This document shows positions 2,540-35,694 of a stretch of DNA of 35,694 nt, in pieces. How positions within the stretch are numbered: position 1 is the first letter of the stretch; the number at the start of each line of letters is the position of its first letter. A model generated the notes under the pieces. The model was not told the origin of the DNA, did no database searches, and saw only the letters and a list, made by a program, of their open reading frames with translations. The position numbers and the translations under genes were made by a program. Origin of the DNA: Oscillospiraceae bacterium (lineage in GTDB: Bacteria > Bacillota > Clostridia > Oscillospirales > Ruminococcaceae); contig JAIKWY010000133.1 of assembly GCA_024684395.1 (NCBI GenBank), forward strand, positions 1-35,694. The letters run 5' to 3'.

Positions 2540-3070
2540 TTACTTCAAGATCTTCCCGAACCGATGGCTGTACCCGCTCTTCCGATGCAGGCGCAGCACC
2601 GCCTTTTCGATGTACCGCTTCACGCCGATCCACTTCTCGCCCGGTACCGTGATGTAATGCACCAGGATGGACGGCATCCCGGCATTGTTGGCACCGAGGA
2701 TGTCCGTGAACATCTGGTCGCCGATGACGATCGCCTCTTTCTTGCCTACGCCGAGCAGCTCCGCCGCCCGCCAGTACGCCTCCGGGTTCGGCTTGTCCGC
2801 ATCGCAGAGGTACAGCGTGTCGATGTGCCGGATGAACCGCTTCACCCGCTCCTCGTCATTGTTCGACAGCAGCAGCGTTTTCAGCCCGATGCTGTGGATA
2901 TAGCGGAACAGCTCCTCGATCTCCGGCGTGGCATCGTCATTGTGATGCACCAGCGTGTTGTCGATGTCAAACAGGATCGCCCGGTATCCGAGCGAATACA
3001 GCTTCACATAGTCAATGTCAAACACACTGTCCGCATATTCATAGGGATAATATCGTTCAAGCATAGGCAT
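2540..3070 (-). CDS. yqeG: YqeG family HAD IIIA-type phosphatase
   Basis: 176 residues with the haloacid dehalogenase motifs in order: FDIDNTLV (motif I, nucleophile and acid Asp), LLSNN (motif II), and DKPNPEAY followed by VIGDQMFTDI (motifs III/IV). YqeG proteins are small cytoplasmic phosphatases; the physiological substrate is not settled. In many Firmicutes yqeG lies next to the ribosome-assembly GTPase gene yqeH, but not here. Its start overlaps the end of the upstream TIM-barrel gene by 14 nt (start at 3070) or 8 nt (second Met at 3064), implying translational coupling. Confidence 0.9.
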   Translation of the reverse strand: MPMLERYYPYEYADSVFDIDYVKLYSLGYRAILFDIDNTLVHHNDDATPEIEELFRYIHSIGLKTLLLSNNDEERVKRFIRHIDTLYLCDADKPNPEAYWRAAELLGVGKKEAIVIGDQMFTDILGANNAGMPSILVHYITVPGEKWIGVKRYIEKAVLRLHRKSGYSHRFGKILK

Positions 3071-3737
3071 GTTCTTTCATGTAAGCGCACACCTTGTTGA
3101 TCTGTGTGCAGAAATCCTCACCGAACTGGTTCTCAAAGAAGGCGCTGCCGATGGTGAATGCCCACGGACCAGCCTCCGTCACCTCATCCAGGCGTTCAAA
3201 GCTGTTGATGCTGCCCGCGATGCAGACCGGCGCCGGCACCTCTGCCACGAGCCGTCTGTTCAGCTCCACCGCATCACCGGTGAAGCGGTAGCCCAGCAGG
3301 TCGATGCCGCAGGCACCCTTTGCGATGTGATCCTTTGCCTCGGCAATGATGCCGTCAATGTCGCCGCCCAGGATCGAGGGTCTGTCATAGACCTCGCCCA
3401 CAAACGGCATGTACCGCAGTTCATGCTCCTTGCAGAAGCGGTTCACGGAGTCAAAGAACATCGTCCCCATCAGGATGTCACACCCACAGTCCACTGCAAG
3501 CTGTGCCCCCTCCAGACACTTGTCCTCGGTATACGAAACGACTTCGAGCACGGTCGTCTTGCCGCACTCACGCATTCTCTTGTAGAGCGCCTTCATCTCC
3601 CCGGGCGGGAGCGGTTCTTCCTTCATGCCCCAGTACTGCGCAGCCGAATCCTTGCACTGTTCAAAGATCTCGGCGGCATTCAGAACGGTCTTGTCATCGT
3701 GCGTCAGCATAACAATGAGCATCGGCTCATGCTGCAT
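3057..3737 (-). CDS. Phosphate-binding TIM-barrel protein (NanE/HisA-like), substrate unknown
   Basis: 226 residues from the ATG at 3737, which has GGAGGAA five nt upstream; a longer reading frame upstream lacks a ribosome site and would cover the promoter. Alternating strand/helix pattern with TTVLEVVSY, GCDILMGTMFF, GACGIDLLGYRF, PVCIAGSINS and a C-terminal AFTIGSAFFE resembles the late beta strands and phosphate cup of NanE, HisA and related (beta/alpha)8 enzymes. I cannot assign a substrate. It is first in a likely operon with yqeG and the VanW gene, downstream of a perfect promoter. Confidence 0.6.
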   Translation of the reverse strand: MQHEPMLIVMLTHDDKTVLNAAEIFEQCKDSAAQYWGMKEEPLPPGEMKALYKRMRECGKTTVLEVVSYTEDKCLEGAQLAVDCGCDILMGTMFFDSVNRFCKEHELRYMPFVGEVYDRPSILGGDIDGIIAEAKDHIAKGACGIDLLGYRFTGDAVELNRRLVAEVPAPVCIAGSINSFERLDEVTEAGPWAFTIGSAFFENQFGEDFCTQINKVCAYMKEHAYA

Positions 3738-3788
3738 ATCTATTCCTCCATTCAGGCTATATTGCGGTCTAACCCCATACATAGGATT

Positions 3789-3817
3789 ATTATACCACAG
3801 AATGGGCATTTTGTCAA
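3789..3817 (-). promoter_or_regulatory. Perfect sigma-A promoter for the TIM-barrel/yqeG/vanW operon
   Basis: On the minus strand TTGACA (3817-3812) and TATAAT (3794-3789) are spaced by 17 nt. Transcription would start about 45 nt upstream of the ATG at 3737. Confidence 0.85.
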
Positions 3818-3855
3818 TTCAAAGTGCATAATTTTCCCACATGCCCAGGGCAGAA

Positions 3856-3966
3856 AAAAACAGCCCTCCCCCGGTGATCGTTCCGGGGGAGGTTCTCCTC
3901 ACATTTTATTAAGCACACACCTTATTTTCACATGGCTTTCTGTATTCTGTCACTCCTTCATCTGAT
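3856..3966 (-). ncRNA. Candidate small RNA (about 110 nt)
   Basis: A perfect minus-strand promoter (TTGACA/TATAAT, 17 nt apart, 4001-3973) fires into a stretch ending in a strong terminator (3892-3865, then seven T). No gene of usual size lies in between. The only small reading frame is a 14-codon GTG frame (3953-3909) containing two Cys codons, but its AAGGAG overlaps the start codon, so translation looks unlikely. No known RNA family was recognised. It could also act as a leader for the operon downstream if transcription read through. Confidence 0.55.
3865..3892 (-). terminator. Terminator of the candidate small RNA
   Basis: Ten-base arms CCTCCCCCGG (3865-3874) and CCGGGGGAGG (3883-3892) form a stable stem. 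On the minus strand it is followed by GCTG and seven T. Confidence 0.85.
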
Positions 3967-3972
3967 GCATTG

Positions 3973-4001
3973 ATTATAGCACAAAATGACATATTTGTCA
4001 A
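3973..4001 (-). promoter_or_regulatory. Perfect sigma-A promoter for the candidate small RNA
   Basis: TTGACA (4001-3996) and TATAAT (3978-3973) with 17-nt spacing on the minus strand. Confidence 0.8.
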
Positions 4002-4091
4002 GGAAATGCAATCGTTTTCGGTAAAGTTTACCTTTTCTTCATAGTTTTTTCGCAAGCGCTTCACTTACAAGGCGATTTTTCGGCATTTCTC

Positions 4092-4120
4092 TTGCATCCA
4101 CGCCCTTTTTATGGTATAAT
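4092..4120 (+). promoter_or_regulatory. Sigma-A promoter of the flippase operon
   Basis: TTGCAT (4092-4097) and TATAAT (4115-4120) with 17-nt spacing. The leader would be only about 25 nt. Confidence 0.75.
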
Positions 4121-4151
4121 AATAGCACTATGCAACCCGGAGGCTTTACCC

Positions 4152-5588
4152 ATGAACAAATACAGATCCCTCGCACTGAATACCGTTGTATTCACGATCG
4201 GGAGCTTCGGGTCGAAATTCATTTCGATCTTTCTGAACAATCTCTACACCAAGCACATCGACCCCGCCTCGCTCTTCACCAAGAGCCTGCTCGAAACGCT
4301 TGCGCTGTTCCTCATCCCGGTCTTTACATTTTCGCTGAAAGAAGCGCTCATCCGCTACGGTCTCGACAAGGACTATGACAAGAAGGAGGTCTTCTCCACC
4401 GCTGCCATCCTCGAAGCCGGCGGACTCGGCTTCATGCTCCTGCTGATCCCCATTCTGCCGCATATCCCCTATTTCGGCAGGCTCGGCAGCTACACCACAC
4501 TGCTCGGCATCTACATCCTGACCTCCTCGCTGCGGGCGCACTGCTCCCAGTTCGTCCGTGCCTGCGAAAAGGTGCGGCTCTTCTCCCTTGACGGCATCCT
4601 GACAACGCTGATGCTCTTCCTGTTCAATCTGGTCTTCATCGGTCATTTCGAGATGGGCGTCCGGGGCTTCATGCTCTCGACCATCCTCTCCGACTTCTGC
4701 TCGGCGGTGTTCCTGTTCGTCACCGGCAATCTCCGCCGCTATTTCAGCCTGAAGGCATGGCAGAGCGACCTCGCAGGGCAGATGCTCCGCTTCACCGTCC
4801 CCCTCATCCCGACCACGGTCATGTGGACATTCACCGGCTTCTCCGACCAGCTCTTCATCGGCGGCATGAAGAGCGACAAGGTCTTTCTCGGCGAGAACGC
4901 CGCCGGCATCTACGCCGCAGCCGCCAAGATCCCGAACCTGATCTCCATGCTTTCCACGATCTTTTTCCAGGCGTGGAATATGTCCGCCATCACCGAGAAC
5001 GACTCCGAAGACCGCAATGTCTTCTATGAAAAGGTCTACAGCACCTACGAAGCCTTCCTGTATATCGGCTCCGCAGGGCTCCTGCTGCTGGTGAAGCCCG
5101 TCTCGTCGATCTTCATCAACTACAGCGTCTATCCCGAATATGCCACCGCCTACCTGAACAGTCCCCTGCTCATCGCAGCGGCAGTCTTCACCTGCCTTGA
5201 CCTGTTCCTGGCGAGCATCTACACCGCCACCAAGCACACCCGCAACGCCTTCTATACCATCCTGATCGTCTTCCTTGCCAACATCCTGCTCAATCTCTGC
5301 CTGATCCCGCTGCTCGGCATCCAGGGCGCCGCACTTGCCACGCTCCTGAGCTACATGCTCTGCTTCTGGGTGCGCATCTTCGATGCAAGACGCTATGTGC
5401 CGTTCCGGTTCTACTTCGCCACCCACCTGCTGAACACCGGACTGCTCCTGCTGCTCTGCGGTCTGAGCATTTTCCAGCCGGCAAATTTCATCCTCATGGA
5501 GATCCCCGTCTGCTGCGGCATCCTTCTCCTCAACCGCCGCCCGTTCATGGCATTGATCGGGAAGCTCCTGAAACGTGAAAGGAAGTGA
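4152..5588 (+). CDS. MATE/Wzx-like polysaccharide or lipid-linked precursor flippase
   Basis: 478 residues with about 12-14 hydrophobic segments from NTVVFTIGSFGSKFISIFL near the N terminus to the last segment around IPVCCGILLL. The overall pattern is that of the MOP superfamily (polysaccharide biosynthesis protein, Wzx, MurJ-like): an N-terminal Gly-Ser-Lys segment after helix 1, short charged loops and a C-terminal basic tail. Likely moves a lipid-linked glycan across the membrane, but no glycosyltransferases are nearby, so the substrate is unknown. GGAGG lies 8 nt before the ATG at 4152. The next gene starts 4 nt after its stop. Confidence 0.8.
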   Translation: MNKYRSLALNTVVFTIGSFGSKFISIFLNNLYTKHIDPASLFTKSLLETLALFLIPVFTFSLKEALIRYGLDKDYDKKEVFSTAAILEAGGLGFMLLLIPILPHIPYFGRLGSYTTLLGIYILTSSLRAHCSQFVRACEKVRLFSLDGILTTLMLFLFNLVFIGHFEMGVRGFMLSTILSDFCSAVFLFVTGNLRRYFSLKAWQSDLAGQMLRFTVPLIPTTVMWTFTGFSDQLFIGGMKSDKVFLGENAAGIYAAAAKIPNLISMLSTIFFQAWNMSAITENDSEDRNVFYEKVYSTYEAFLYIGSAGLLLLVKPVSSIFINYSVYPEYATAYLNSPLLIAAAVFTCLDLFLASIYTATKHTRNAFYTILIVFLANILLNLCLIPLLGIQGAALATLLSYMLCFWVRIFDARRYVPFRFYFATHLLNTGLLLLLCGLSIFQPANFILMEIPVCCGILLLNRRPFMALIGKLLKRERK

Positions 5589-5592
5589 GCCC

Positions 5593-6312
5593 TTGCCATT
5601 CTCCAAAAAAACAGCCGAGTTCCTCGAATGCGAGCGCTGGTGGATCTTAGCGGCGCTGATGTGTATCGGCGGCTTCTTCGGCGGCTTCACCTATACGGTG
5701 CGGGGCGGCATCTTCTGCAATGCCCAGACCGCCAATTTTGTCCTGCTTGCGATGGCGATCGGTGACGGCGACTGGGCGCAGGCACGCTATCTCATCATCC
5801 CGATCACGGCATACTTCCTCGGCGCCGTCGTCTCCGAGACAGCCGCCGCCCATATCAAGAAATACAACCTCATCCGCTGGGATACCTTGCTCATCATGAT
5901 CGAGCTGGTCGTAGTGGTCATCCTCGGTCTCATCCCGGACGATGCCCCGTTCCAGATATCCCAGGTCGCCGTGAATTTCATCTGCTCGATGCAGTACAAC
6001 ACCTTCCGACAGGCAGACGGCATCCCGATGGCAACGACCTTCTGCACGAACCACCTCCGGCAGGTCGGCGTCTTCTTCACCAAAGGCATCCGCCACGCCG
6101 AAAAAGCCCATTTCAGCCGGATGCTGTTCCACGTCGGCATGCTGACGCTGTTCGTTGCCGGCGGCATCATCGCCACGGTACTGTGCAGACGCTTCGGCGG
6201 CAAAGGCGTCTGGTTCGCCGCCGTTCCGCTGCTGTTCATTCTCTGTGACCTGCTCTATGCCGACCTGCATAAGGAAAAAGGCGAACTGGACAGGAAGCCC
6301 AAGGGACACTAA
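5593..6312 (+). CDS. YoaK family (DUF1275) membrane protein
   Basis: 239 residues starting at TTG 5593; AAAGGA inside the end of the flippase gene gives good spacing, and the alternative GTG at 5575 has none. Six or so membrane segments: WILAALMCIGGFFGGFTY, FVLLAMAIGD, IIPITAYFLGAVV, TLLIMIELVVVVILG, MLTLFVAGGIIATVL and a last segment near VPLLFILCDLLYAD. The family signature at the start (GGFTYTVRGGIFCNAQTANF) matches the typical YoaK pattern where a small-residue helix is followed by T-GN/AQTAN. Function of the family is unknown; a transport role is often guessed. Probably co-transcribed with the flippase. Confidence 0.85.
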   Translation: MPFSKKTAEFLECERWWILAALMCIGGFFGGFTYTVRGGIFCNAQTANFVLLAMAIGDGDWAQARYLIIPITAYFLGAVVSETAAAHIKKYNLIRWDTLLIMIELVVVVILGLIPDDAPFQISQVAVNFICSMQYNTFRQADGIPMATTFCTNHLRQVGVFFTKGIRHAEKAHFSRMLFHVGMLTLFVAGGIIATVLCRRFGGKGVWFAAVPLLFILCDLLYADLHKEKGELDRKPKGH

Positions 6313-6358
6313 ACGATTTTTTGCATTATAAAGCGAAGCAAAGATAAAAGTTTTTGGT

Positions 6359-6491
6359 CCAGCTTTTTTCAAAAAGCTGGTCAGGTCCAGGGCTGAAAGC
6401 CCTGGTCGCTCGCCGCAGCGAGCGAAATACCCTTGCCGGAGGCGCTCGCAAGGGGTGAATTTCAAAAACAGTCCAGTGGACTGTTTTTGAA
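6359..6491. repeat. Composite palindromic repeat element (five hairpins)
   Basis: In order: CCAGCTTTTT/AAAAAGCTGG (6359-6380), CCAGGGCT/AGCCCTGG (6387-6405), CGCTCGC/GCGAGCG (6407-6424), CCCTTGC/GCAAGGG (6430-6454), and a perfect 15-bp palindrome with a one-base centre (6461-6475 and 6477-6491). The first hairpin resembles elements at 34350 and 35664. No coding capacity; the chained-hairpin structure looks like a non-autonomous repeat rather than a simple terminator. Confidence 0.75.
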
Positions 6492-6494
6492 AGA

Positions 6495-6526
6495 GGGGAC
6501 GGCTGCAAGAGAGCCGTCCCCTTTTT
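6495..6526 (+). terminator. Terminator of the flippase/YoaK operon
   Basis: Arms GGGGACGGCT (6495-6504) and AGCCGTCCCC (6512-6521) followed by a run of T. Confidence 0.85.
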
Positions 6527-6607
6527 TGCCTTTACAGCACATTTTCCTCGCCGCCTTTATGCGGCGACATCCTTTTTCTCCCTGAACACCCCACCAAAAA
6601 TCTCTTT

Positions 6608-6636
6608 GCATACAGCCTGTATCTCCCGCATACACT
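6608..6636 (+). promoter_or_regulatory. Candidate sigma-E-type sporulation promoter for sipL
   Basis: CATACACT (6629-6636) matches the sigma-E -10 consensus CATACA-T, and GCATACA (6608-6614) lies 14 nt upstream as a plausible -35. No good sigma-A promoter is visible before sipL. Since SpoIVA and SipL act in the mother cell under sigma E in characterised sporeformers, the context agrees. Confidence 0.55.
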
Positions 6637-6666
6637 CTACCAACCACATTCACAGGAGGTACCCGC

Positions 6667-8205
6667 ATGGAATTACAAACCACCCGCACCGTCATCACAT
6701 CCGCCGAGCCGCTCGGGACGACCGTCCAGGAGCAGGGCATCGAGCTGGATTATGTGCTCCCCGACTACTTCCCCGATGTCTTCACTTTACTGAAATGCTT
6801 TGTCACGCCGACAATCACGAGCCAGTCCGTCAGCGGCGACCGCCTGAGCTATGAGCTCCGGGCAGACATCCGCATCCTCTACTGCACCGAGCAATCCCAC
6901 GTCCTGCAATGCGTCACCCAGACTTTGCACTTCTCCCGCACAGCCGAGCTCCCGCCCGGTGAGAGCATCACCGCCGAGCTGAGCCCCACGCTTGACTATG
7001 TCAACTGCCGTGTCGTGAGCCGCCGCCGTCTGGATCTGCGCGGAGCCGTCACCATCCGCATCCGTTCGACCGCCCTCCGCCGGCAGGAAGTCCTCTCCGA
7101 CATCTCCGGCAAGGGCATCCAGCTCCGCCGCCAGCCGGTGCAGTTCCCCGCTCATAGCCTTCGTGCCGAACGGAGCATCCTGATCTCCGAGGAGCTCGAA
7201 CTCGGCAGCGCCAAGCCGCCCATGCTGCACATCGTCCGCTGCGATGCCCGTGCCGTTGAGCAGACCCAGCGCTATGTCTCCGGCAAGCTCATGGTGCAGG
7301 GCAGCCTACAGGTGCAGCTGCTCTATGCCTGCGAAAAAGACAGCGACGGCAGTCTCGAACCCATGTCCTTCCGTCTCCCCTACAGCCAGCTCGTAGATCT
7401 CGAAGGCGCCGGCGAACAGGATCTCTGCCAGATCGAGACCGACGTCCTCTCCTGCGACATCAAGCCCGTCTCCGATGCCTCCGGCGAGGTGCATATGCTC
7501 CGCTGCGATGCCGAGCTGCATGTCACCTGCACGGCGCTCCGCATCGGCGCAGGCTCCCTCGTGACGGATGCCTTCTCCACCGAACATCCGAGCGAGACCG
7601 TCCGTGTGAGCATCCCGCTTGCCGGCGCTCCCGTCCCCGTCTCCGAAACGCTCACCGTCAGCGCCAAGCTCCCCTGCACGGATACCGAGCTCGATTGTGT
7701 CTATGATGCATGGTGCGAAGTCCGCACCCTCTCGACCGAACAGCAGGACGGCACCGTCCTCGTCACCGGGATGCTCGCCTGTCTGTGTCTCGTCCGGGAA
7801 AGCAGCGGTCTGCCCCGCCTGCTCGAAAAGGAGGAGCCCTTCGAGTACAGCTTCACCCCGGAAAGCCTTGGCGACAGCGACGCCCTCCGGCTCAAAGCAT
7901 CTGCCGTCAACACGGCATACACCCTTTCCTCCGCCGCCGAGGTCACACTCCGCTGCGAGCTCTCCCTTGCGGGAACCCTCACCCACACCACAGCCGTTGA
8001 AGCCCTGACCGATCTTGTGTTAGATGAAGAAGAAACCCTCCCCCGCCGCTACGCCCTCAAGCTCTACTACGGCAGCACCGGCGAAGCCGTCTGGGACATC
8101 GCCCGCCGCTCCCACACCAGCGTGGAAGCCATCATGGCGGAGAACGACCTGACCGATGAGATCCTCTCCCGCAGCGGAATGCTCCTCATCCCCATCGTTG
8201 GCTGA
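6667..8205 (+). CDS. sipL: SipL-like spore coat morphogenesis protein (DUF3794 + LysM)
   Basis: 512 residues. The first 460 hold repeated DUF3794-type beta-rich units (for example YVLPDYFPDVFTLLKC followed by an ILYC-containing strand, then similar segments near residues 200-300 and 330-450). The last 50 (from LKLYYGSTGEAVWDIARR to the end) form a LysM domain. This architecture is that of SipL of Clostridioides difficile, which binds SpoIVA through its LysM domain and helps localise the coat around the forespore. Finding spoIVA as the next gene supports the assignment. AGGAGG sits 7 nt before the ATG. Cytoplasmic mother-cell protein, no signal peptide. Confidence 0.85.
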   Translation: MELQTTRTVITSAEPLGTTVQEQGIELDYVLPDYFPDVFTLLKCFVTPTITSQSVSGDRLSYELRADIRILYCTEQSHVLQCVTQTLHFSRTAELPPGESITAELSPTLDYVNCRVVSRRRLDLRGAVTIRIRSTALRRQEVLSDISGKGIQLRRQPVQFPAHSLRAERSILISEELELGSAKPPMLHIVRCDARAVEQTQRYVSGKLMVQGSLQVQLLYACEKDSDGSLEPMSFRLPYSQLVDLEGAGEQDLCQIETDVLSCDIKPVSDASGEVHMLRCDAELHVTCTALRIGAGSLVTDAFSTEHPSETVRVSIPLAGAPVPVSETLTVSAKLPCTDTELDCVYDAWCEVRTLSTEQQDGTVLVTGMLACLCLVRESSGLPRLLEKEEPFEYSFTPESLGDSDALRLKASAVNTAYTLSSAAEVTLRCELSLAGTLTHTTAVEALTDLVLDEEETLPRRYALKLYYGSTGEAVWDIARRSHTSVEAIMAENDLTDEILSRSGMLLIPIVG

Positions 8206-8247
8206 GACAGTATACGAAGCGCCTTTCCATTTCCAAACAAAGCGGGT

Positions 8248-8335
8248 GCAGGGGGTGCAACCCCCTGCGAAAAAAGCCCCCTCCCTGGGGAGGGGGTTGG
8301 GGGTGGGGGTAAAAAGAATGCCTTTTCTTTTTACC
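8248..8335. repeat. Hairpin cluster between sipL and spoIVA
   Basis: Three stems: GCAGGGGGT/ACCCCCTGC (8248-8268), CCCCCTCCC/GGGGAGGGGG (8277-8296) and GGTAAAAAGAA/TTCTTTTTACC (8308-8335). Same type of GC-rich palindromes as in other gaps. They could attenuate read-through into spoIVA; no separate spoIVA promoter is obvious. Confidence 0.65.
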
Positions 8336-8377
8336 GGTCTCTCAAAAATCACTCCCCATAACCAGGAAGGAGTACCC

Positions 8378-9850
8378 ATGAACGACATCTACACCGACAT
8401 TGCCCGCCGCACCGGCGGAGACATCTACATCGGCGTGGTCGGACCCGTCCGCACGGGCAAATCCACGCTCATCAAGCGCTTCATGGAAACGCTTGTTATC
8501 CCGAACATCGACAGCAGCTTCAAGAAGGAACGAGCCGTTGACGAGCTCCCGCAGTCCGCCGCCGGCAAGACCATCATGACGACCGAGCCGAAGTTCATCC
8601 CCGAGGAAGCCGTCCCCGTTCGTCTCGATGACGGCGCACAGTTCCGCTGCCGGATGATCGACTGCGTGGGCTACATCGTCCCGAGCGCTTTAGGCTACAT
8701 CGAAAACGAAATGCCCCGCATGGTCATGACGCCGTGGTTCGATGAGGAAGTCCCCTTCAACATGGCAGCCGAGATCGGCACCCAGAAGGTCATCACCGAA
8801 CATGCCACCGTCGGACTCGTCGTGACAACAGACGGCAGCATCTCCGACATCCCCCGGGAGGAATATGCCGAAGCCGAAGCGCGTGTCATCTCCGAGCTGC
8901 AAGCCCTCGGCAAGCCCTTTGTCGTGCTGCTCAACACCACCGACCCGCATTCCGAAGCCGCCCGCAGTCTCGCCGCAGAGATGCAGGAAAGCTACGGCAC
9001 CGCCGTCCTCCCCGTGAGCGTCATCGACCTGACGGAGAACGACATCCGGGAGATCCTGACAGCGCTTCTCTATGCCTTCCCCATCCGGGAGGTCAATTTC
9101 GCCATGCCCGGCTGGGTCAGTATGCTCGGCAAGGGGCATCCCGTGAAGGATGCCGTCTTCGGCTGCATCCGGAGCGCCGCACAGACGCTCTCCACCGTGA
9201 AGGATGCCGCCGGACTTGCACAGCAGATCTGCGACTGTGAATACATCCTCCACGCCGCCCCGACCGGGATCGACCTCGGCACCGGCACGGTCACGATCAG
9301 CGTGAGCCTTGACGGCGCATTGTTTTTCCGCATCCTCAGTGAAGCGACCGGGCTTTCCATTGCGGATGAAAGCGGGCTGCTCTCCACCCTCACCGAGCTC
9401 TGCGAGATCAGAAAAGCCTACGCCCGCATCGAGCCCGCTCTCCGTGAAGTGGAAGCCACCGGCTACGGCATCGTCATGCCCTCGATGGAGGAGCTCCACC
9501 TCGAGGAGCCCGAGATCATCCGACAGGGCGGCAAGTACGGCGTCCGCCTGAAAGCCTCCGCCCCCTCCATCCACCTGATGAAAGCCGGTATCACCACCAC
9601 GGTGAGCCCGATCGTCGGCACCGAAAAGCAGAGCGAGGAACTCGTCATGTATCTCCTCGAGGGCTTCGAGGAAGACCCCGGCCGCATCTGGGAGTCGAAC
9701 ATCTTCGGCAAATCCCTCCACGAGCTGGTGAATGAAGGGCTGCACTCCAAGCTGTTCAAGATGCCCGTCGAAGCCCGCATGAAGCTCCAGGAGACCCTCG
9801 AACGCATCATCAACGAGGGCTGCTCCGGTCTGATATGCTTCATTTTGTAG
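8378..9850 (+). CDS. spoIVA: Stage IV sporulation protein A, coat-assembly ATPase
   Basis: 490 residues, essentially the same length as Bacillus subtilis SpoIVA. Walker A GPVRTGKS at residues 22-29 with Lys28, a following conserved TTEPKFIP segment, MIDCVGY as the Walker B-like element, and the family's C-terminal end CSGLICFIL. SpoIVA hydrolyses ATP to polymerise irreversibly on the outer forespore membrane and forms the base layer of the spore coat. The start has GGAAGGAG 5-6 nt upstream; an in-frame extension into the repeat region upstream is not real. In C. difficile its recruitment partner is SipL, encoded here just upstream. Confidence 0.97.
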   Translation: MNDIYTDIARRTGGDIYIGVVGPVRTGKSTLIKRFMETLVIPNIDSSFKKERAVDELPQSAAGKTIMTTEPKFIPEEAVPVRLDDGAQFRCRMIDCVGYIVPSALGYIENEMPRMVMTPWFDEEVPFNMAAEIGTQKVITEHATVGLVVTTDGSISDIPREEYAEAEARVISELQALGKPFVVLLNTTDPHSEAARSLAAEMQESYGTAVLPVSVIDLTENDIREILTALLYAFPIREVNFAMPGWVSMLGKGHPVKDAVFGCIRSAAQTLSTVKDAAGLAQQICDCEYILHAAPTGIDLGTGTVTISVSLDGALFFRILSEATGLSIADESGLLSTLTELCEIRKAYARIEPALREVEATGYGIVMPSMEELHLEEPEIIRQGGKYGVRLKASAPSIHLMKAGITTTVSPIVGTEKQSEELVMYLLEGFEEDPGRIWESNIFGKSLHELVNEGLHSKLFKMPVEARMKLQETLERIINEGCSGLICFIL

Positions 9851-30019: not shown

Positions 30020-30934
30020 CTATACGTTATAAAACCCATCCTCATACGCCCAGACCGTCGTCCGCAGTCCATTCGCCCCAAACACGACCCGCACCCGGCA
30101 GATGCGCTCCTCCTGCAAATGCGCCCCGAACGTCACCTTCTCCCCGAGCTGCTCATCCGCAAAGCCCGCATACTCCACGAACTTCGCCCGCCAGCCCCTG
30201 TCGGAATACAGATTTCGGAACGTCAGCGCCTCCGTCGGATCCGAAAGATACGCCCGGTCAAACGGGATCTGCTTGTGCCGCACGATCTCCGTCCCCGCAG
30301 CCGCCGGATTGTCCTGTACATAGGCATCCGGCGTCCCGTCCAACGCCTCCATATGATAACAGCTCACAAGTTTGGTCGTGTCATACTCCGTCCCATAGCT
30401 CACCGCCGCCGGGATCGTGACCAGCCGTGGATCATCCGGCAGCGTCATCCGCACCATGTTCCCCACCGTGTACGCATGACCGCCCGTCAGCTTGTACGTG
30501 AAATGCACGATACAGTCCCAGAGACTTGTCTTGCTCGTCACATAGATATATCCCGTCCGCTGATCCTCCTGATACGTCACATGCGGAAACGTGTAGAACC
30601 CCTGCACCAGATCCCCGATCGTCAGATTCGCATGAAGCCCCGGTACCAGCTCATTCTGCACCAGCACGGATGTAAAACTCCGCGCCTTGATGCGCAGCAT
30701 CCTGACACCCGCCCGCAGCACCTGCACCACCCGGTCAGTGATCCCGAGGAAGATCTCCGTCATGTCATATTCCAGCCCGATCCGGCATACCTGCTCGGGA
30801 TGGAAATCCCCCACCGGAAACTCCGCCGTCAGCGTCTCATACGGCGTGTAGATCTCCCGCTCCAGCACCAGAGCCGTGCAGGCAGTCTCCACCGCCGCAC
30901 CCTCCGCAAAATACAGCCGCAGCCTAAAGCTCAT
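30020..30934 (-). CDS. Phage baseplate hub-like protein (XkdQ / late control D type)
   Basis: 304 residues. A beta-rich N terminus (LRLYFAEG, LEREIYTPYETLTAEFPV, EIFLGITDRVVQV) followed by a segment with SKTSLWDCIVHFTYKLTGGHAY and ending FGAHLQEERICRVRVVFGANG fits the hub/tube-cap proteins related to XkdQ of PBSX and gpD. It would sit at the tail tip. Its ATG overlaps the previous stop (ATGA). Assignment rests on general pattern and position, not on one decisive motif. Last gene of the leftward cassette; nothing phage-like follows it. Confidence 0.5.
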   Translation of the reverse strand: MSFRLRLYFAEGAAVETACTALVLEREIYTPYETLTAEFPVGDFHPEQVCRIGLEYDMTEIFLGITDRVVQVLRAGVRMLRIKARSFTSVLVQNELVPGLHANLTIGDLVQGFYTFPHVTYQEDQRTGYIYVTSKTSLWDCIVHFTYKLTGGHAYTVGNMVRMTLPDDPRLVTIPAAVSYGTEYDTTKLVSCYHMEALDGTPDAYVQDNPAAAGTEIVRHKQIPFDRAYLSDPTEALTFRNLYSDRGWRAKFVEYAGFADEQLGEKVTFGAHLQEERICRVRVVFGANGLRTTVWAYEDGFYNV

Positions 30935-31317
30935 GTCTCATCCTCCGTTTCCAGCACCGTGTTTGTCAGGAAGATCAGCACCACCTCCGGCACATCATAG
31001 CCCTCGCCGAGACTGTACCCGATCAGCAGCGCATTCCGATACAGCAGATGCCCGAGCCGGAGCCCCATCGTCTCCCCTGCCCGGAGCTTCCCATCCAGCG
31101 CCGCCGCTACAGATGCCACATCCGCCGCCTCTGACAGCTTCCCTTTCAGCACCAGCTTTGTCCCCTTTGACCAGCACGCCGTGACAGCCGTGTGCCCCTG
31201 TGCCGTCCCCTGCTCCCGCACCGCACAGCTCCCGGTCAGGCGATATTCCGCCAGATGCAGCACGATCTCCCCCACCGTCACATCATACTGCTTCATCCCG
31301 CAAATACTCAAACCCAT
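30931..31317 (-). CDS. Small phage protein, unknown, possible tail component
   Basis: 128 residues from ATG 31317 with AGGAGAGAATTGC before it. Predominantly beta (QYDVTVGEIVLHLAEYRL, HTAVTACWSKGTKLVLKGKL, VVLIFLTNTVL), consistent with a tail-type beta barrel or a XkdN/late-gene accessory. No specific family recognised. Translationally coupled to the hub-like gene. Confidence 0.5.
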   Translation of the reverse strand: MGLSICGMKQYDVTVGEIVLHLAEYRLTGSCAVREQGTAQGHTAVTACWSKGTKLVLKGKLSEAADVASVAAALDGKLRAGETMGLRLGHLLYRNALLIGYSLGEGYDVPEVVLIFLTNTVLETEDET

Positions 31318-31387
31318 GCAATTCTCTCCTTTTTCTCAAAAAAGCACCAGAACCCCGGTCTTGTGCTTCGACTACCCCACCCCCTGA

Positions 31388-31462
31388 CCCCCTCCCCAAA
31401 GGGGAGGGGGAGGAAATAGCGGCGCTGCGCGCCGCAGCTGCTTTAGGGGCTCCGCCCCTAAA
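31388..31462. repeat. Palindromic repeat cluster inside the phage cassette (1)
   Basis: CCCCCTCCCC/GGGGAGGGGG (31388-31410), GCGGCGC/GCGCCGC (31419-31435) and TTTAGGGGC/GCCCCTAAA (31442-31462), followed by CCCCGTTTTTGCC. It occupies most of the 193-nt gap between two structural genes. Confidence 0.75.
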
Positions 31463-31510
31463 AACCCCGTTTTTGCCTGCGACTCATTCTAAACGGAACA
31501 GCTCCCATTG

Positions 31511-31912
31511 TCACTCACCGCAGACGGCGCAATCCCATACTCCCCGAAACCGTACCACCGCCCGCAGCACTGTCCTCTGCAATTTCGCATCCCCGAGCGC
31601 CGGCTGCACCTCGCATACCACCGCCCCCATCGACTCGAGCGCCGGCAGGATCGAACCATACAGCAGCTCCTCCGCCACGCTGACCGGCACCGTCATCGGC
31701 ACGAGCACAGAGATCCGCAGGAACGCCGCAAACGGATGCACCGCCCCCTCACCGTCCGGAAACGGCAGATCCAGCTGCAAGCGTTCCGCCTCCACCACTG
31801 TGAACCGCCGGTCAGACTTGCGCGGGATCGGCACCGCATCAAATCCCGGATAGACCTCCCCGCCGCACGCCTCCTGCAACGCCGCAACCACCTCATTGAT
31901 CAGCTCCCGCAT
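31511..31912 (-). CDS. Small phage protein, candidate tail-completion or connector
   Basis: 133 residues from ATG 31912, with AGGAGG 5 nt upstream; its start overlaps the end of the connector gene by 20 nt. Pattern: N-terminal helix MRELINEVVAALQEA, YPGFDAVPIPRKSDRRFTVVEAERLQLD, and paired beta strands. Size and position right after the head-tail connector resemble the XkdI/XkdJ type of neck or tail-terminator protein. No defining motif seen. Confidence 0.5.
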   Translation of the reverse strand: MRELINEVVAALQEACGGEVYPGFDAVPIPRKSDRRFTVVEAERLQLDLPFPDGEGAVHPFAAFLRISVLVPMTVPVSVAEELLYGSILPALESMGAVVCEVQPALGDAKLQRTVLRAVVRFRGVWDCAVCGE

Positions 31913-32267
31913 CACAGCCTCCTGTCCCGATGAAGAAAAATGTCTCATCCCGCAACAGCTCCGCACAGATCCCACGATATGCCGAGACAAGCCGCTCCGC
32001 AAGGCTCCCCTTCACCTCATCCGGCGCAGACGCCACATTTCCCGCATATACCGCCAGCGCACCGCCCCGGATGCCCCAGATCTCCTGGTACCGCAGATTC
32101 GCCACAGCCGCCGCAAGATAGCACAACCGCACATCCGTCTCATCCGCTCCATCCTGCAGCGCCCGCCGCACCTCCGCCGCCGCTAAAGACAGCAGCGGCA
32201 GATACCCGCTCACATCTGCCTCCCCCGAGAACAGCGTGAACAGCGCCCCGATCATCTTCATATCCAT
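31893..32267 (-). CDS. Putative phage head-tail connector (XkdH-like)
   Basis: 124 residues, mostly helical: IGALFTLFSGEADVSGYLPLLSLAAAEVRRALQ, VRLCYLAAAVANLRYQEIW, LAERLVSAYRGICAELL. Small helical proteins of this size after capsid and protease genes are usually adaptor/connector proteins (gp6-like, XkdH). Start ATG has only a weak GGGGGTG upstream. Fourteen nt after the protease gene. Confidence 0.55.
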   Translation of the reverse strand: MDMKMIGALFTLFSGEADVSGYLPLLSLAAAEVRRALQDGADETDVRLCYLAAAVANLRYQEIWGIRGGALAVYAGNVASAPDEVKGSLAERLVSAYRGICAELLRDETFFFIGTGGCDAGADQ

Positions 32268-32281
32268 ATAAACACCCCCGC

Positions 32282-33100
32282 TCAGGGCATCCGGAATGCC
32301 CCGTCCGGCGACTCACTTGCCGCCCCGGCAAGCTGCACCTCCGCCTCGCCGCAGCTCTCCGCCAGGAGCGCCCGCTTGAATGCCATCAGTTCCCCGATGT
32401 CCATCTTGTCCGCCGCCATGCAAAGTGCCTTCGATATGGCATTTTCACGCCCGCACAGCACCAGCACCTCCTCACGCAGCATCTTCTCCACTTCATCGAG
32501 CAGCGCCTTCTCGTTTTCCATGATAACCTCCTGTTCCCCCGTGAAACGCTTCGTCACCCCCGCCGACACCTGCGCCGGCACAGCAACAAAGCTCCATTCA
32601 TAGGCATCTTTCACATCATCCAGCACCGTACAGCACAGCTTCCCGTCATAGTACCGCCCCGGTACATGCGCACAGCCCCCGCCGCTGCGATCCGCCCCGC
32701 AGACCGAACAGCTCCGCCGCCCCGCACTGCACGACACACTGACTTCCTTCTTGATACCGCCCTCGATCTCCCGGATGAGATCCGCATTCGACGCCGTCCG
32801 GATCATATACGCCTTCGCCGTCAGCGCGACATACGGCCGCCCGTCCTTCGTCAGCCGTCCCGCCTCCGGAATGAGCGCCGTGTCGTAGATCCGCGCCGTC
32901 TGCCCGAGCGCCCGCATGTCGTGGTCGAAAATGCCCGTTTTCCCGACAAACAGCCCACGCATCGCCGTAAGCGCCTCCTCCGAGAAGCACTCCAGGTCCC
33001 GATCCACATCATTATCACACAGCACCACATCAAACAGATAGACCTCCTCCGCCTGATGCTCCCGCCGTGTAAACCGGTTCAGCTTTTCCAGCTCCGTCAT
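32282..33100 (-). CDS. Prohead protease, S78_2 / XkdF-like, with Cys-rich insert
   Basis: 272 residues from the third ATG (33100), giving GGAGG 7 nt spacing. N-terminal protease-like domain with LCDNDVDRDLECFSEEAL, GKTGIFDHD and ARIYDTAL, ending in DAYEWSFVAVPAQVSAGVTK, which is the hallmark end of clostridial phage XkdF-type proteases. Between them a Cys/His cluster (CSAGRRSCSVCGADRSGGGCAH) could bind zinc. The C-terminal third (after MENEKALLDEVEK) is helical and may be a scaffold part. It cleaves capsid scaffold during head assembly. It comes after the capsid gene here, the reverse of the usual order. Confidence 0.72.
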   Translation of the reverse strand: MTELEKLNRFTRREHQAEEVYLFDVVLCDNDVDRDLECFSEEALTAMRGLFVGKTGIFDHDMRALGQTARIYDTALIPEAGRLTKDGRPYVALTAKAYMIRTASNADLIREIEGGIKKEVSVSCSAGRRSCSVCGADRSGGGCAHVPGRYYDGKLCCTVLDDVKDAYEWSFVAVPAQVSAGVTKRFTGEQEVIMENEKALLDEVEKMLREEVLVLCGRENAISKALCMAADKMDIGELMAFKRALLAESCGEAEVQLAGAASESPDGAFRMP

Positions 33101-33119
33101 CATCATTCCTCCAGTATTT

Positions 33120-33296
33120 GCGACCGTTCCGGTCGCTTAGGGGGGCTCCTCGCCCCCCTTACCCCCTCGGCAGGCGCAGAGCCTGCGCTGGCAGGTGCCT
33201 CCCAATGCCCTTCGGGCAAAGGTCGGCAGCAGCCCTGCACCCGCATCTTATCACAAAACCCAAACCTCGTTTTTTTGCTCACCGCAGTGAGCGAGA
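33120..33296. repeat. Palindromic repeat cluster inside the phage cassette (2)
   Basis: GCGACC/GGTCGC (33120-33136), AGGGGGGC/GCCCCCCT (33139-33159), a CAGGCGCAG/CTGCGCTGG-like stem (33172-33191) and GCTCACC/GTGAGC after a run of seven T (33270-33292). Fills the 203-nt gap between capsid and protease genes. Confidence 0.7.
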
Positions 33297-33303
33297 TCCC
33301 CTA

Positions 33304-34263
33304 TCAAGTGATCTCCAGCACCTTCACCGCACCCGACATCAGCGCCCTGAAGCCCACATTGATGGAAACGCCGATGCAGTCGAGCTGACGGTCGATGAGC
33401 TTGTCCGTCTCCAGCACGACCTCGCTGCTGCGGATCTGTTCGAGCGCAAAATCCGTGTCCAGACCGATGACCGTATCATCGTCAAGCTGCTTGCAGTTGA
33501 TGAGACGAGTGCCGAACGGCAGACGGATCTCCGTCACATCCTTGGACGATGCCTCCAGCATCTCATCCATGACAAGGATCTGCGCCATCACACCCGGCGA
33601 TACCAGCACCGCCTTCATGTCAAAGCTCGTAAAACTGCCGTACAGCGCCGCAAGATCGCCGTAAGCCAGCCCCGTGACAGATGTTGCTGTCACAGAATCC
33701 ACCAGCACATCCAGCGCCGCACCGGTCACAGAATCCGCCAGCTCCTTGCCCACACGGCGCAGCATCAGTGCGAACACATCCAGCTTCTGCTGACGAACCG
33801 CCTCATAGGAAGCCTTGATCGTTCTGCCGTACTTCGCCAGAGAAACCACACTGTCACTCTCCGTGATGGTCGAATCCGGCATCGCAGAACCCTCGTTCGT
33901 GGTCGAATACGCCGCCGTCTCCGTCAGCACCACACCCTGATAGCGGTTCGACTCGCAGCGTGTCACAACAGCCGTGATCTCGTCGAGCACCGCCTCGCGC
34001 ATGCCCTGCACAATGGCTCTGCGCACGAATTCCGGGAACAGCACCGCGCTCTCCGTGGTCGTGAAGAACTTCTCCACCCTGTCACAGCCCGCACCGTTCA
34101 CACGGATGTCGAAGCGCTTGAGCTGACGCTCGTAAGCATCGAGCGCCGCCAGCGGTGTGCCGGCATACTGCGCCTGCGGATCCGCCTCTTCGAGCGCCTG
34201 CAAGAAGCTCTTGCCCGCCAGATGATACATACCCTTCTCCAGCTTCACATCATTATACATCAT
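33304..34263 (-). CDS. Major capsid protein, HK97 fold (XkdG-like)
   Basis: 319 residues from ATG 34263 with AGGAGGA 7 nt upstream. Features of PBSX/XkdG-type capsid proteins: helical N terminus, then FFTTTESAVLFPEFVRRAIVQG, SLAKYGRTIKASYEAVRQQKLDVFALMLRRVGKELA (spine helix), SPGVMAQILVMDEML and a C-terminal strand region ending in VGFRALMSGAVKVLEI. It would form the phage-like head. No cargo-loading or encapsulin-specific feature visible; portal and protease genes argue for a true phage head. Confidence 0.78.
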   Translation of the reverse strand: MMYNDVKLEKGMYHLAGKSFLQALEEADPQAQYAGTPLAALDAYERQLKRFDIRVNGAGCDRVEKFFTTTESAVLFPEFVRRAIVQGMREAVLDEITAVVTRCESNRYQGVVLTETAAYSTTNEGSAMPDSTITESDSVVSLAKYGRTIKASYEAVRQQKLDVFALMLRRVGKELADSVTGAALDVLVDSVTATSVTGLAYGDLAALYGSFTSFDMKAVLVSPGVMAQILVMDEMLEASSKDVTEIRLPFGTRLINCKQLDDDTVIGLDTDFALEQIRSSEVVLETDKLIDRQLDCIGVSINVGFRALMSGAVKVLEIT

Positions 34264-34349
34264 CACATTTTCCTCCTAAATCACATGATTCCGTCTTTTA
34301 ACTACTGCTCCCCCACCCACGGCGAAGCCAAAAGACCGTTTTTTTGCTC

Positions 34350-34479
34350 AAGCTTTTTTTCGTAAAAAAAGCTTGCAGGGGTCAAGGGGACAGCGGCGAA
34401 CGCCCCGTCCCCTCTGTCTCGTTCCTCGACATCTCCCCACCCCGTGGGGAGTCACCCTTGTCGCCGTCCGCAGACGGCG
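34350..34479. repeat. Composite palindromic repeat reaching into the portal gene
   Basis: AAGCTTTTTTT/AAAAAAAGCTT (34350-34374), GGGGAC/GTCCCC (34386-34412), CTCCCC/GGGGAG (34433-34451) and CGCCGTC/GACGGCG (34462-34479). The first hairpin lies after the portal stop; the other three are translated as the last 30 or so residues of the portal protein. Confidence 0.75.
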
Positions 34480-35605
34480 AAATCTTCGCAGCCGCCTCCA
34501 ACGCCTCCGCCTGCGCATTATACAGCCGCGCCTTCGCCAGCTCCACCTCATCCTGCAAGTTGATGTTATCCCACGCCACACGCACCTGCGCATAGCACCC
34601 GTGCAGCTGCAAGAACGCCCCCGCAATGCGGCAGATGACCGGCTCCAGCAACCGCCGGTAATACTCCAGCTCCGATGTCAGGATATCCGCCTGCTGCGCC
34701 GACATCCGCTCCGTGGATGACCAGTTCAGACCGAGCAGAAACGGCGGGATCGAGAGCTTTGCAATGAGCTGTTCGAGGATCTGCCGCACCGGGATCTCCG
34801 TGTCCGGCATCGAACCCTCCGCCCCGATCACCCGGATGTTCACATCCCCGACCGAGACAAAATCCCGGATCTCGCCGCGCTTCGCCGCCTGCATACCCTC
34901 GCTCCACTCCCGTGCGATCGCCTGCGCACGCTCTCCCGCATACGCCATCTCGCCCGGATCCGCCGAAGGCTTGTACGTCACCGCATACCGGATATTCCCC
35001 GCCCGATCATAATTCTGACCAATGCAGTCATAAATTTTCAGCAACAGCTCCGCAAACACCGGCAACCCCTGTAAGAGCGAAATACCGTAGATCCCGCCCT
35101 CCGGAGGCCGCAGCGCCGTGAACAGGATCCGCTCCGGATGCGGGAGAACGACCTCGCCGTTTTCCGTCCGCAGCACATACTGCCGCTGCAGCGGATGCGC
35201 CCCCGCACGGACGCCAACGTCCGCAGCACGCCCGTTCCACAGCCCCGCAATGTTCCGCCCCTGCCTGTCCAGCACGATCTCCCCGACCGCATTGCCATAC
35301 ACAAGCAGACTGTCCAGATACCCGTCCATGAAGCTGTATACCGACTGGCCCGTCAGCCCGACCGGCACCTCCCGCAGGAATGCATCGAGCGCCGCCTGCA
35401 TCCGTGCATCAGAGCACTCCACCCGGAACGTCCCGATGAGCCGCACGATCTTGGAGATCGCCGCATCCACGATCGGCACCGTCCGCCGCACCCGCTCAAA
35501 CAGCGCATAGCTGTAGAGCTGCACCGGAAATTCCTCCGCCCGCCCCCGCACCGCCGTCTGCACCTCCGGCAGCCTGGCAGGCTTCTTCTTACCAAACCAA
35601 TTCAT
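34382..35605 (-). CDS. Phage portal protein
   Basis: 407 residues from ATG 35605 with GGGAGGT 5 nt upstream. PBSX/SPP1-type portal pattern: YALFERVRRTVPIVDAAISKIVRLIG, YLDSLLVYGNAVGEIVLDRQG, YGISLLQGLP, and the late segment LSIPPFLLGLNWSSTERMSAQQADILTSELEYYRRLLEPV, typical of portal proteins. Forms the dodecameric DNA gate of the head and binds terminase. The C-terminal end from SPSADGDKGDSPRGGE onward is low-complexity and encoded by a palindromic repeat. Upstream (right) a hairpin at 35664 precedes it; the terminase, if any, lies outside the window. Confidence 0.85.
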   Translation of the reverse strand: MNWFGKKKPARLPEVQTAVRGRAEEFPVQLYSYALFERVRRTVPIVDAAISKIVRLIGTFRVECSDARMQAALDAFLREVPVGLTGQSVYSFMDGYLDSLLVYGNAVGEIVLDRQGRNIAGLWNGRAADVGVRAGAHPLQRQYVLRTENGEVVLPHPERILFTALRPPEGGIYGISLLQGLPVFAELLLKIYDCIGQNYDRAGNIRYAVTYKPSADPGEMAYAGERAQAIAREWSEGMQAAKRGEIRDFVSVGDVNIRVIGAEGSMPDTEIPVRQILEQLIAKLSIPPFLLGLNWSSTERMSAQQADILTSELEYYRRLLEPVICRIAGAFLQLHGCYAQVRVAWDNINLQDEVELAKARLYNAQAEALEAAAKISPSADGDKGDSPRGGEMSRNETEGTGRSPLSP

Positions 35606-35663
35606 GATCAACCTCCCGAACTCTCCTCCACACCCGCCCATCCCCCATCTCGTTTTTTTGATC

Positions 35664-35689
35664 AAACTTTTTTTCCGCAAAAAAAGTTT
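35664..35689. repeat. T7/A7 hairpin upstream of the portal gene
   Basis: AAACTTTTTTT (35664-35674) and AAAAAAAGTTT (35679-35689), with GTTTTTTTGATC before and GCAGG after. Same layout as 34339-34379, where the stem ends are AAGC/GCTT instead. Confidence 0.8.
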
Positions 35690-35694
35690 GCAGG

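Follow-up and report, generated by a model that had tools for sequence, protein, structure and literature searches.

The 35,694-bp window that we analysed, the whole of contig JAIKWY010000133.1 (C90) of the Oscillospiraceae bacterium assembly GCA_024684395.1, carries at its right end a compact cassette of phage-type genes, all on the minus strand. A preliminary description, made from the sequence alone, had read it as a minimal PBSX-like module without tail tube, sheath or lysis genes, possibly a domesticated gene-transfer particle; the cassette proved real as described. From the right, it begins with a portal protein (34382..35608; PHROG 30703, E 5e-141), followed by the major capsid protein (33304..34266; Phage_capsid_4, E 2e-15; PHROG 3922, E 5e-66) and a probable prohead protease (32282..33106; PHROG 16951) with a CxxC...CxH motif and invariant His62 and Ser123 (130/130). 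Sequence searches of the PDB with the protease, portal and capsid returned nothing credible. The next gene, c122 (31893..32267), matches no family; its position after capsid and protease and its conservation point to a probable head-tail connector. The product of c138 (31511..31912; start picked by eye in a reading frame open to 32002) belongs to a conserved family whose only PDB profile hits are weak ones to lambda gpU (E 0.06-0.2), and may be a tail-terminator or neck protein. The small protein c130 (30931..31317) has a predicted structure (pLDDT 76) with a fold like that of phage tube or tube-initiator proteins: Foldseek matched it weakly, in every case with E > 0.001, to tube and baseplate proteins of phages, and an hhalign comparison paired it with the pre-hub protein found in contractile relatives (E 3e-5, probability 73). 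The absence of a tail tube claimed earlier holds for a separate tube gene and needs a caveat, because the fold of c130 is tube-like. The last gene of the operon encodes a baseplate-hub-like protein with a gp27/gp44/VgrG fold (30020..30934).

Interspersed repeats that recur elsewhere in the genome lie in two gaps of the cassette (31351..31483 and 33117..33302), across the 3' end of the portal gene (34320..34493) and just ahead of the portal start, where the contig ends within the repeat (35621..35694). They fall between genes or at the portal end, supplying the last ~25 codons of the portal, and split no gene. A segment elsewhere in this genome (G000:C71:1951-2429; L322) shares 67% DNA identity with window positions 32568-33049, in the protease gene, and lies among phage-tail-like genes; it appears to be a phage relative of that one cassette gene.

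The terminase genes lie on the facing end of another contig. A profile search of the same genome found the best TerL match at C160:137-1390 (E 9e-221) and TerS at C160:1374-1775 (E 4e-38), in the orientation expected if C160 continues the window. From the gene order in relatives we infer that C90 and C160 are adjacent, with the junction unassembled. The presumed motif residues of TerL are invariant across 20 relatives, and we take them to be the Walker A, Walker B and nuclease acidic residues. Phage-derived capsid, portal and terminase genes with conserved functional motifs thus stand in a chromosome, as is characteristic of a gene transfer agent (GTA). Past TerS, C160 carries genes named by eye as substrate-binding protein, NifD/NifH-like and ABC-transporter genes, so that ordinary genes border the cassette on both sides. 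In locus L321 of this genome, the NifD/NifH-like and ABC-transporter genes next to TerS and TerL occupy positions 2721-9656. A second, distant TerL (C128, E 8e-22) sits inside a separate prophage-like region with its own structural genes (G000:C128:14000-30000; L323). The preliminary description had left room for the rest of a prophage beyond the right edge. The contig does end at 35694 with the junction unassembled, and a complete prophage reaching outside the window would account for the cassette; C160, however, holds TerL and TerS and then chromosomal genes, and relatives have the same nine genes between ordinary genes. We therefore rejected a prophage running on past the right edge, as far as the broken assembly allows, and give such a fragment next to no credence.

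The order TerS-TerL-portal-capsid-protease-c122-c138-c130-hub is the same in the best 80 of 324 named loci, whose records are labelled Ruminococcus (57), other Oscillospiraceae (12), Clostridium (1) or unplaced (10). All nine genes are present wherever the contig has room, missing genes being judged by a simple length rule; gaps always fall at contig ends except for c138 in L075, where its frame is fused to c130 without a stop, through a true fusion or an assembly error. The median operon length is 6884 bp (range 6262-7913, n = 65). Capsid and protease share one frame without a stop in L085, again a true fusion or an assembly error, and the capsid gene of L109 contains an N run. Relatives with the nine genes have ordinary genes on both flanks. 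No integration or replication genes were seen by eye in the window's own contigs or in L103, L109, L220, L229, L234, L242-L244, L247, L253 and L324; no profile scan for them was made.

The portal is present in 33 of the 36 other genomes of the window's genus (G001 and G030 have no match, and G005, which matched through the repeat-encoded portal tail only, was set aside) and in 116 of 125 genomes of the Ruminococcus flavefaciens genus (that of G333), including 66 of 68 of high quality. It was found in 175 of 396 family genomes (56 of 115 genera) and in 54 of 297 order genomes from at least five families. Nearly every genome has a single match. Double matches occurred in G067 and G329 in the family search and in G796 and G721 of the R. 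flavefaciens genus, where they are two pieces of one gene and overlapping pieces on two contig ends, respectively. IMG/VR contained 89 relatives, of which the 80 kept all lie on contigs of <=18.6 kb. Six GenBank "phage" records match the portal at <60% identity, and no phage-sized relative was found among the 80 IMG/VR loci and the one GenBank record examined. That record (MT835508.1, "Bacteriophage sp.", human faeces, 46.7 kb; L324) is chromosome and not phage: positions 1-40999 hold a hub-less cassette between Rnf-like genes and a ribosomal protein operon, these neighbours being named by eye. Separately, a TerL close to that of the cassette (L339, 5975-7189; E 6e-149) lies in a prophage-like region with a sheath gene, which is a candidate for the phage stock from which the cassette came.

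To compare the history of the cassette with that of its hosts, we built trees of TerL, portal and capsid and of RpoB (its open reading frame chosen by homology) for 30 genomes of 28 genera. Distances in the two were correlated (Mantel r 0.595), a value reached in none of 5000 permutations (maximum 0.267). Of 27 splits, 12 are common to both trees; under permutation the mean was 0.17 and the maximum 2 in 2000. Splits with support >=95 do not conflict. We also calculated ratios of nonsynonymous to synonymous substitution (dN/dS, NG86 method) for named loci only, using pairs with 0.05<dS<0.8 (12 to 39 non-independent pairs per gene). The medians were 0.11 for TerS, 0.08 (0.076) for TerL, 0.09 (0.094) for the portal, 0.11 for the capsid, 0.10 for the protease, 0.15 for c122, 0.14 for c138, 0.17 for c130 and 0.12 for the hub, lowest for TerL and portal. 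Single pairs of c122 reached 0.58 in this range, and dN/dS was 0.52 for c138 and 0.60 for c130 when all pairs with dS<1.5, distant ones included, were used. By these ratios, all nine genes are under purifying selection, including the portal and capsid, which the preliminary description had singled out for this comparison. Vertical inheritance and purifying selection within a host lineage are found together here, as in GTAs.

Two rival explanations fit these data poorly. Its minimal content and some broken or truncated copies are what a decaying prophage remnant persisting by chance would look like; yet all nine genes have low dN/dS medians (0.08-0.17), the repeats in the window split no gene, and the portal persists in 116 of 125 R. 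flavefaciens-genus genomes with one internal stop among the matches listed, so that we hold a remnant to be extremely unlikely. Capsid-forming phage-inducible chromosomal islands, which are mobile, integrase-bearing and helper-dependent, have head and packaging genes without a full tail, and the head, terminase and connector genes of the cassette resemble such satellites, which borrow the tails of helper phages. In contrast to mobile satellites, the cassette occurs as near-universal single copies, and its phylogeny agrees with that of the hosts; reading flanks by eye revealed no integrase, no profile scan for integrases having been made. We regard a satellite as very unlikely. The long residence proposed earlier is borne out by near-universal presence in two genera, nearly always as a single copy, by agreement with the RpoB tree, by purifying selection and by host genes on both sides, and the cassette is almost certainly domesticated rather than a prophage fragment.

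The expectation of a conserved chromosomal position was borne out within clades, where the position is common, and not between clades, where it differs. Among neighbours named by eye, 7 genomes from 5 genera have a glgP-like gene beside the operon, 4 genomes have a pgk-like gene near it, and a radical-SAM gene of ~212 aa is directly upstream (median 146 bp) in 14 loci, from three genomes with contractile-type operons (type C, below) and the named set.

We retrieved 60 loci across the family, in most cases one or two from each genus. They comprise 16 of type A, with the order of the window, 23 of type B, with the protease before the capsid and no sheath profile match, 19 of type C, with sheath, tube and baseplate genes inside the operon, and 2 untyped (L215 and L261). 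In the type-C locus L242 we found a sheath gene (PHROG 279, E 4e-26), baseplate J (Pfam, E 9e-42), a Mu-gp48-like gene and the hub; no tape measure gene was seen in L242 or L243. The label "PBSX-like" is thus justified by relatives whose operons still hold sheath, baseplate J and Mu-gp48-like genes. The six type-C genomes included in the trees fall into a single clade that has support in both trees and also contains G069, G178 and G215, three genomes in which the sheath profile has no match. Because the trees are unrooted, we only infer that the contractile state is ancestral. Profile searches found neither sheath nor baseplate J in the window's own genome, and so not the pair that marks PBSX and contractile tailocins. 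Most compact lineages examined lack them too: baseplate J was not found in 34 and sheath not in 38 of 40 searched genomes that are not type C (the window's own among them, with 8 from the same genus and 7 from that of G333), and both matched in 5 of 5 type-C controls.

We propose that the cassette is a domesticated, vertically inherited head-and-packaging operon that works as a tail-reduced GTA-like system, a reading to which we assign a probability of roughly two in three. In this model, TerS and TerL would fill a small capsid with chromosomal DNA by way of the portal, and the operon's own protease would mature that capsid. The c122 and c138 proteins, the tube-fold protein c130 and the hub would close the vertex as a very short tail, standing in for the contractile tail kept by related genera. 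Particles would be released by lysis of the producer cell, through genes outside the operon, and would feed DNA to kin. Alternatively, a domesticated particle might have another job: it might kill in the manner of PBSX, or be a capsid in which DNA is stored and never delivered. The hub and the contractile relatives resemble PBSX and tailocins, and PBSX is described as packing DNA without injecting it (PMC12946183). However, the sheath and baseplate J that drive contractile tailocins are absent from most of the compact lineages searched, and the lowest dN/dS medians are those of TerL and the portal, for which a pure tailocin would have no use. We consider another job possible, if unlikely.

Several observations weigh against a GTA-like system. 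In the R. flavefaciens genus, 9 of 125 genomes have no portal, and in the family sample more than half have none. One in-frame stop each interrupts four portals in the search of the window's genus and six among the family matches listed, in addition to the one mentioned above for the R. flavefaciens genus. TerL is broken in L081 and L091, the capsid of L081 is also in pieces, and truncated operons occur in L234 (five head genes only) and L261 (portal only); L234, L261 and L081 are possibly lineages that are losing the system. Of the 60 diverse family loci, the profile of c138 matches only 17 and that of c130 only 27. Baseplate J also matches outside type C, in G174, G293, G191, G162, G286 and G203, and sheath in G174 and G203. 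No lysis gene or regulator was identified for the operon, and the upstream regions gave no clear LexA signal (12 of 67 with a box at one mismatch versus 7.2 when shuffled; 2 of 67 with an exact box versus 0.3). Lacking baseplate and fibre genes, the operon offers no account of how DNA would enter a Gram-positive cell. The system is known here from its genes, with particle formation, host-DNA cargo, release and delivery predicted from them, and the operon is a candidate source of particle DNA in R. callidus (see below), where its presence is presumed.

On balance, Ruminococcus and related gut bacteria keep a near-fixed, well-kept chromosomal gene set that probably makes tiny particles moving bacterial DNA between cells. 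For the movement of DNA in capsids within Ruminococcus, a genus of central importance to the digestion of fibre, the nine genes are a concrete candidate. The related operons with and without a contractile tail form a series in which the reduction of a phage to a carrier of DNA can be followed, and one such stretch of chromosome stands deposited as a phage (MT835508.1).

Among known systems, PBSX of Bacillus subtilis has the same gene order of portal, protease, capsid, connectors and hub, and the contractile relatives of the cassette hold sheath, baseplate J and Mu-gp48-like genes as well. The cassette differs in being a compact operon without sheath, separate tube, tape measure, baseplate or lysis gene and in its host-like inheritance over many genera. 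The Rhodobacter capsulatus GTA (RcGTA) is likewise domesticated and vertically inherited, and the weak structural neighbours of c130 include chains of RcGTA; unlike the cassette, it comes with a long siphovirus-like tail, and its cluster measures about 14 kb. Closer to hand, the FpGTA of Faecalibacterium is encoded by two operons and forms ~40-nm particles without identifiable tails that contain 8.4-8.9 kb of DNA; as that source describes it, ten open reading frames in 10.5 kb are joined by a second operon, which supplies baseplate, fibre and lysis genes (PMC12946183). The cassette, in contrast, has nine genes in 6.9 kb, and its own genome has no baseplate J match. The TerL profile matched 0 of 8 genomes of a genus that is only tentatively Faecalibacterium (assigned with a 16S probe that hit 4 of 396 genomes, in four genera). 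Genome G384 has other genes at the coordinates published for FpGTA, and so is a different strain. The same source mentions that R. callidus packages DNA in capsids as even 4.6-kb fragments, naming no operon in that account, and R. callidus is not among the four metagenome-assembled genomes it names as searched for GTA elements (PMC12946183). We found no publication in the open subset of PubMed Central naming such an operon in Ruminococcus. A 6.9-kb operon exceeds a 4.6-kb particle, so that its own cluster would not fit, as expected of a GTA. Tentatively, and with somewhat less than even confidence, we suggest an ancient GTA lineage distinct from FpGTA and near-core in Ruminococcus and much of its order, which began as a PBSX-like contractile element, lost sheath and baseplate and now makes almost tailless DNA-carrying particles; it would be the source of the 4.6-kb DNA of R. 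callidus and perhaps also lie behind the transfer of DNA that Klieve reportedly saw in ruminal Ruminococcus in 2005.

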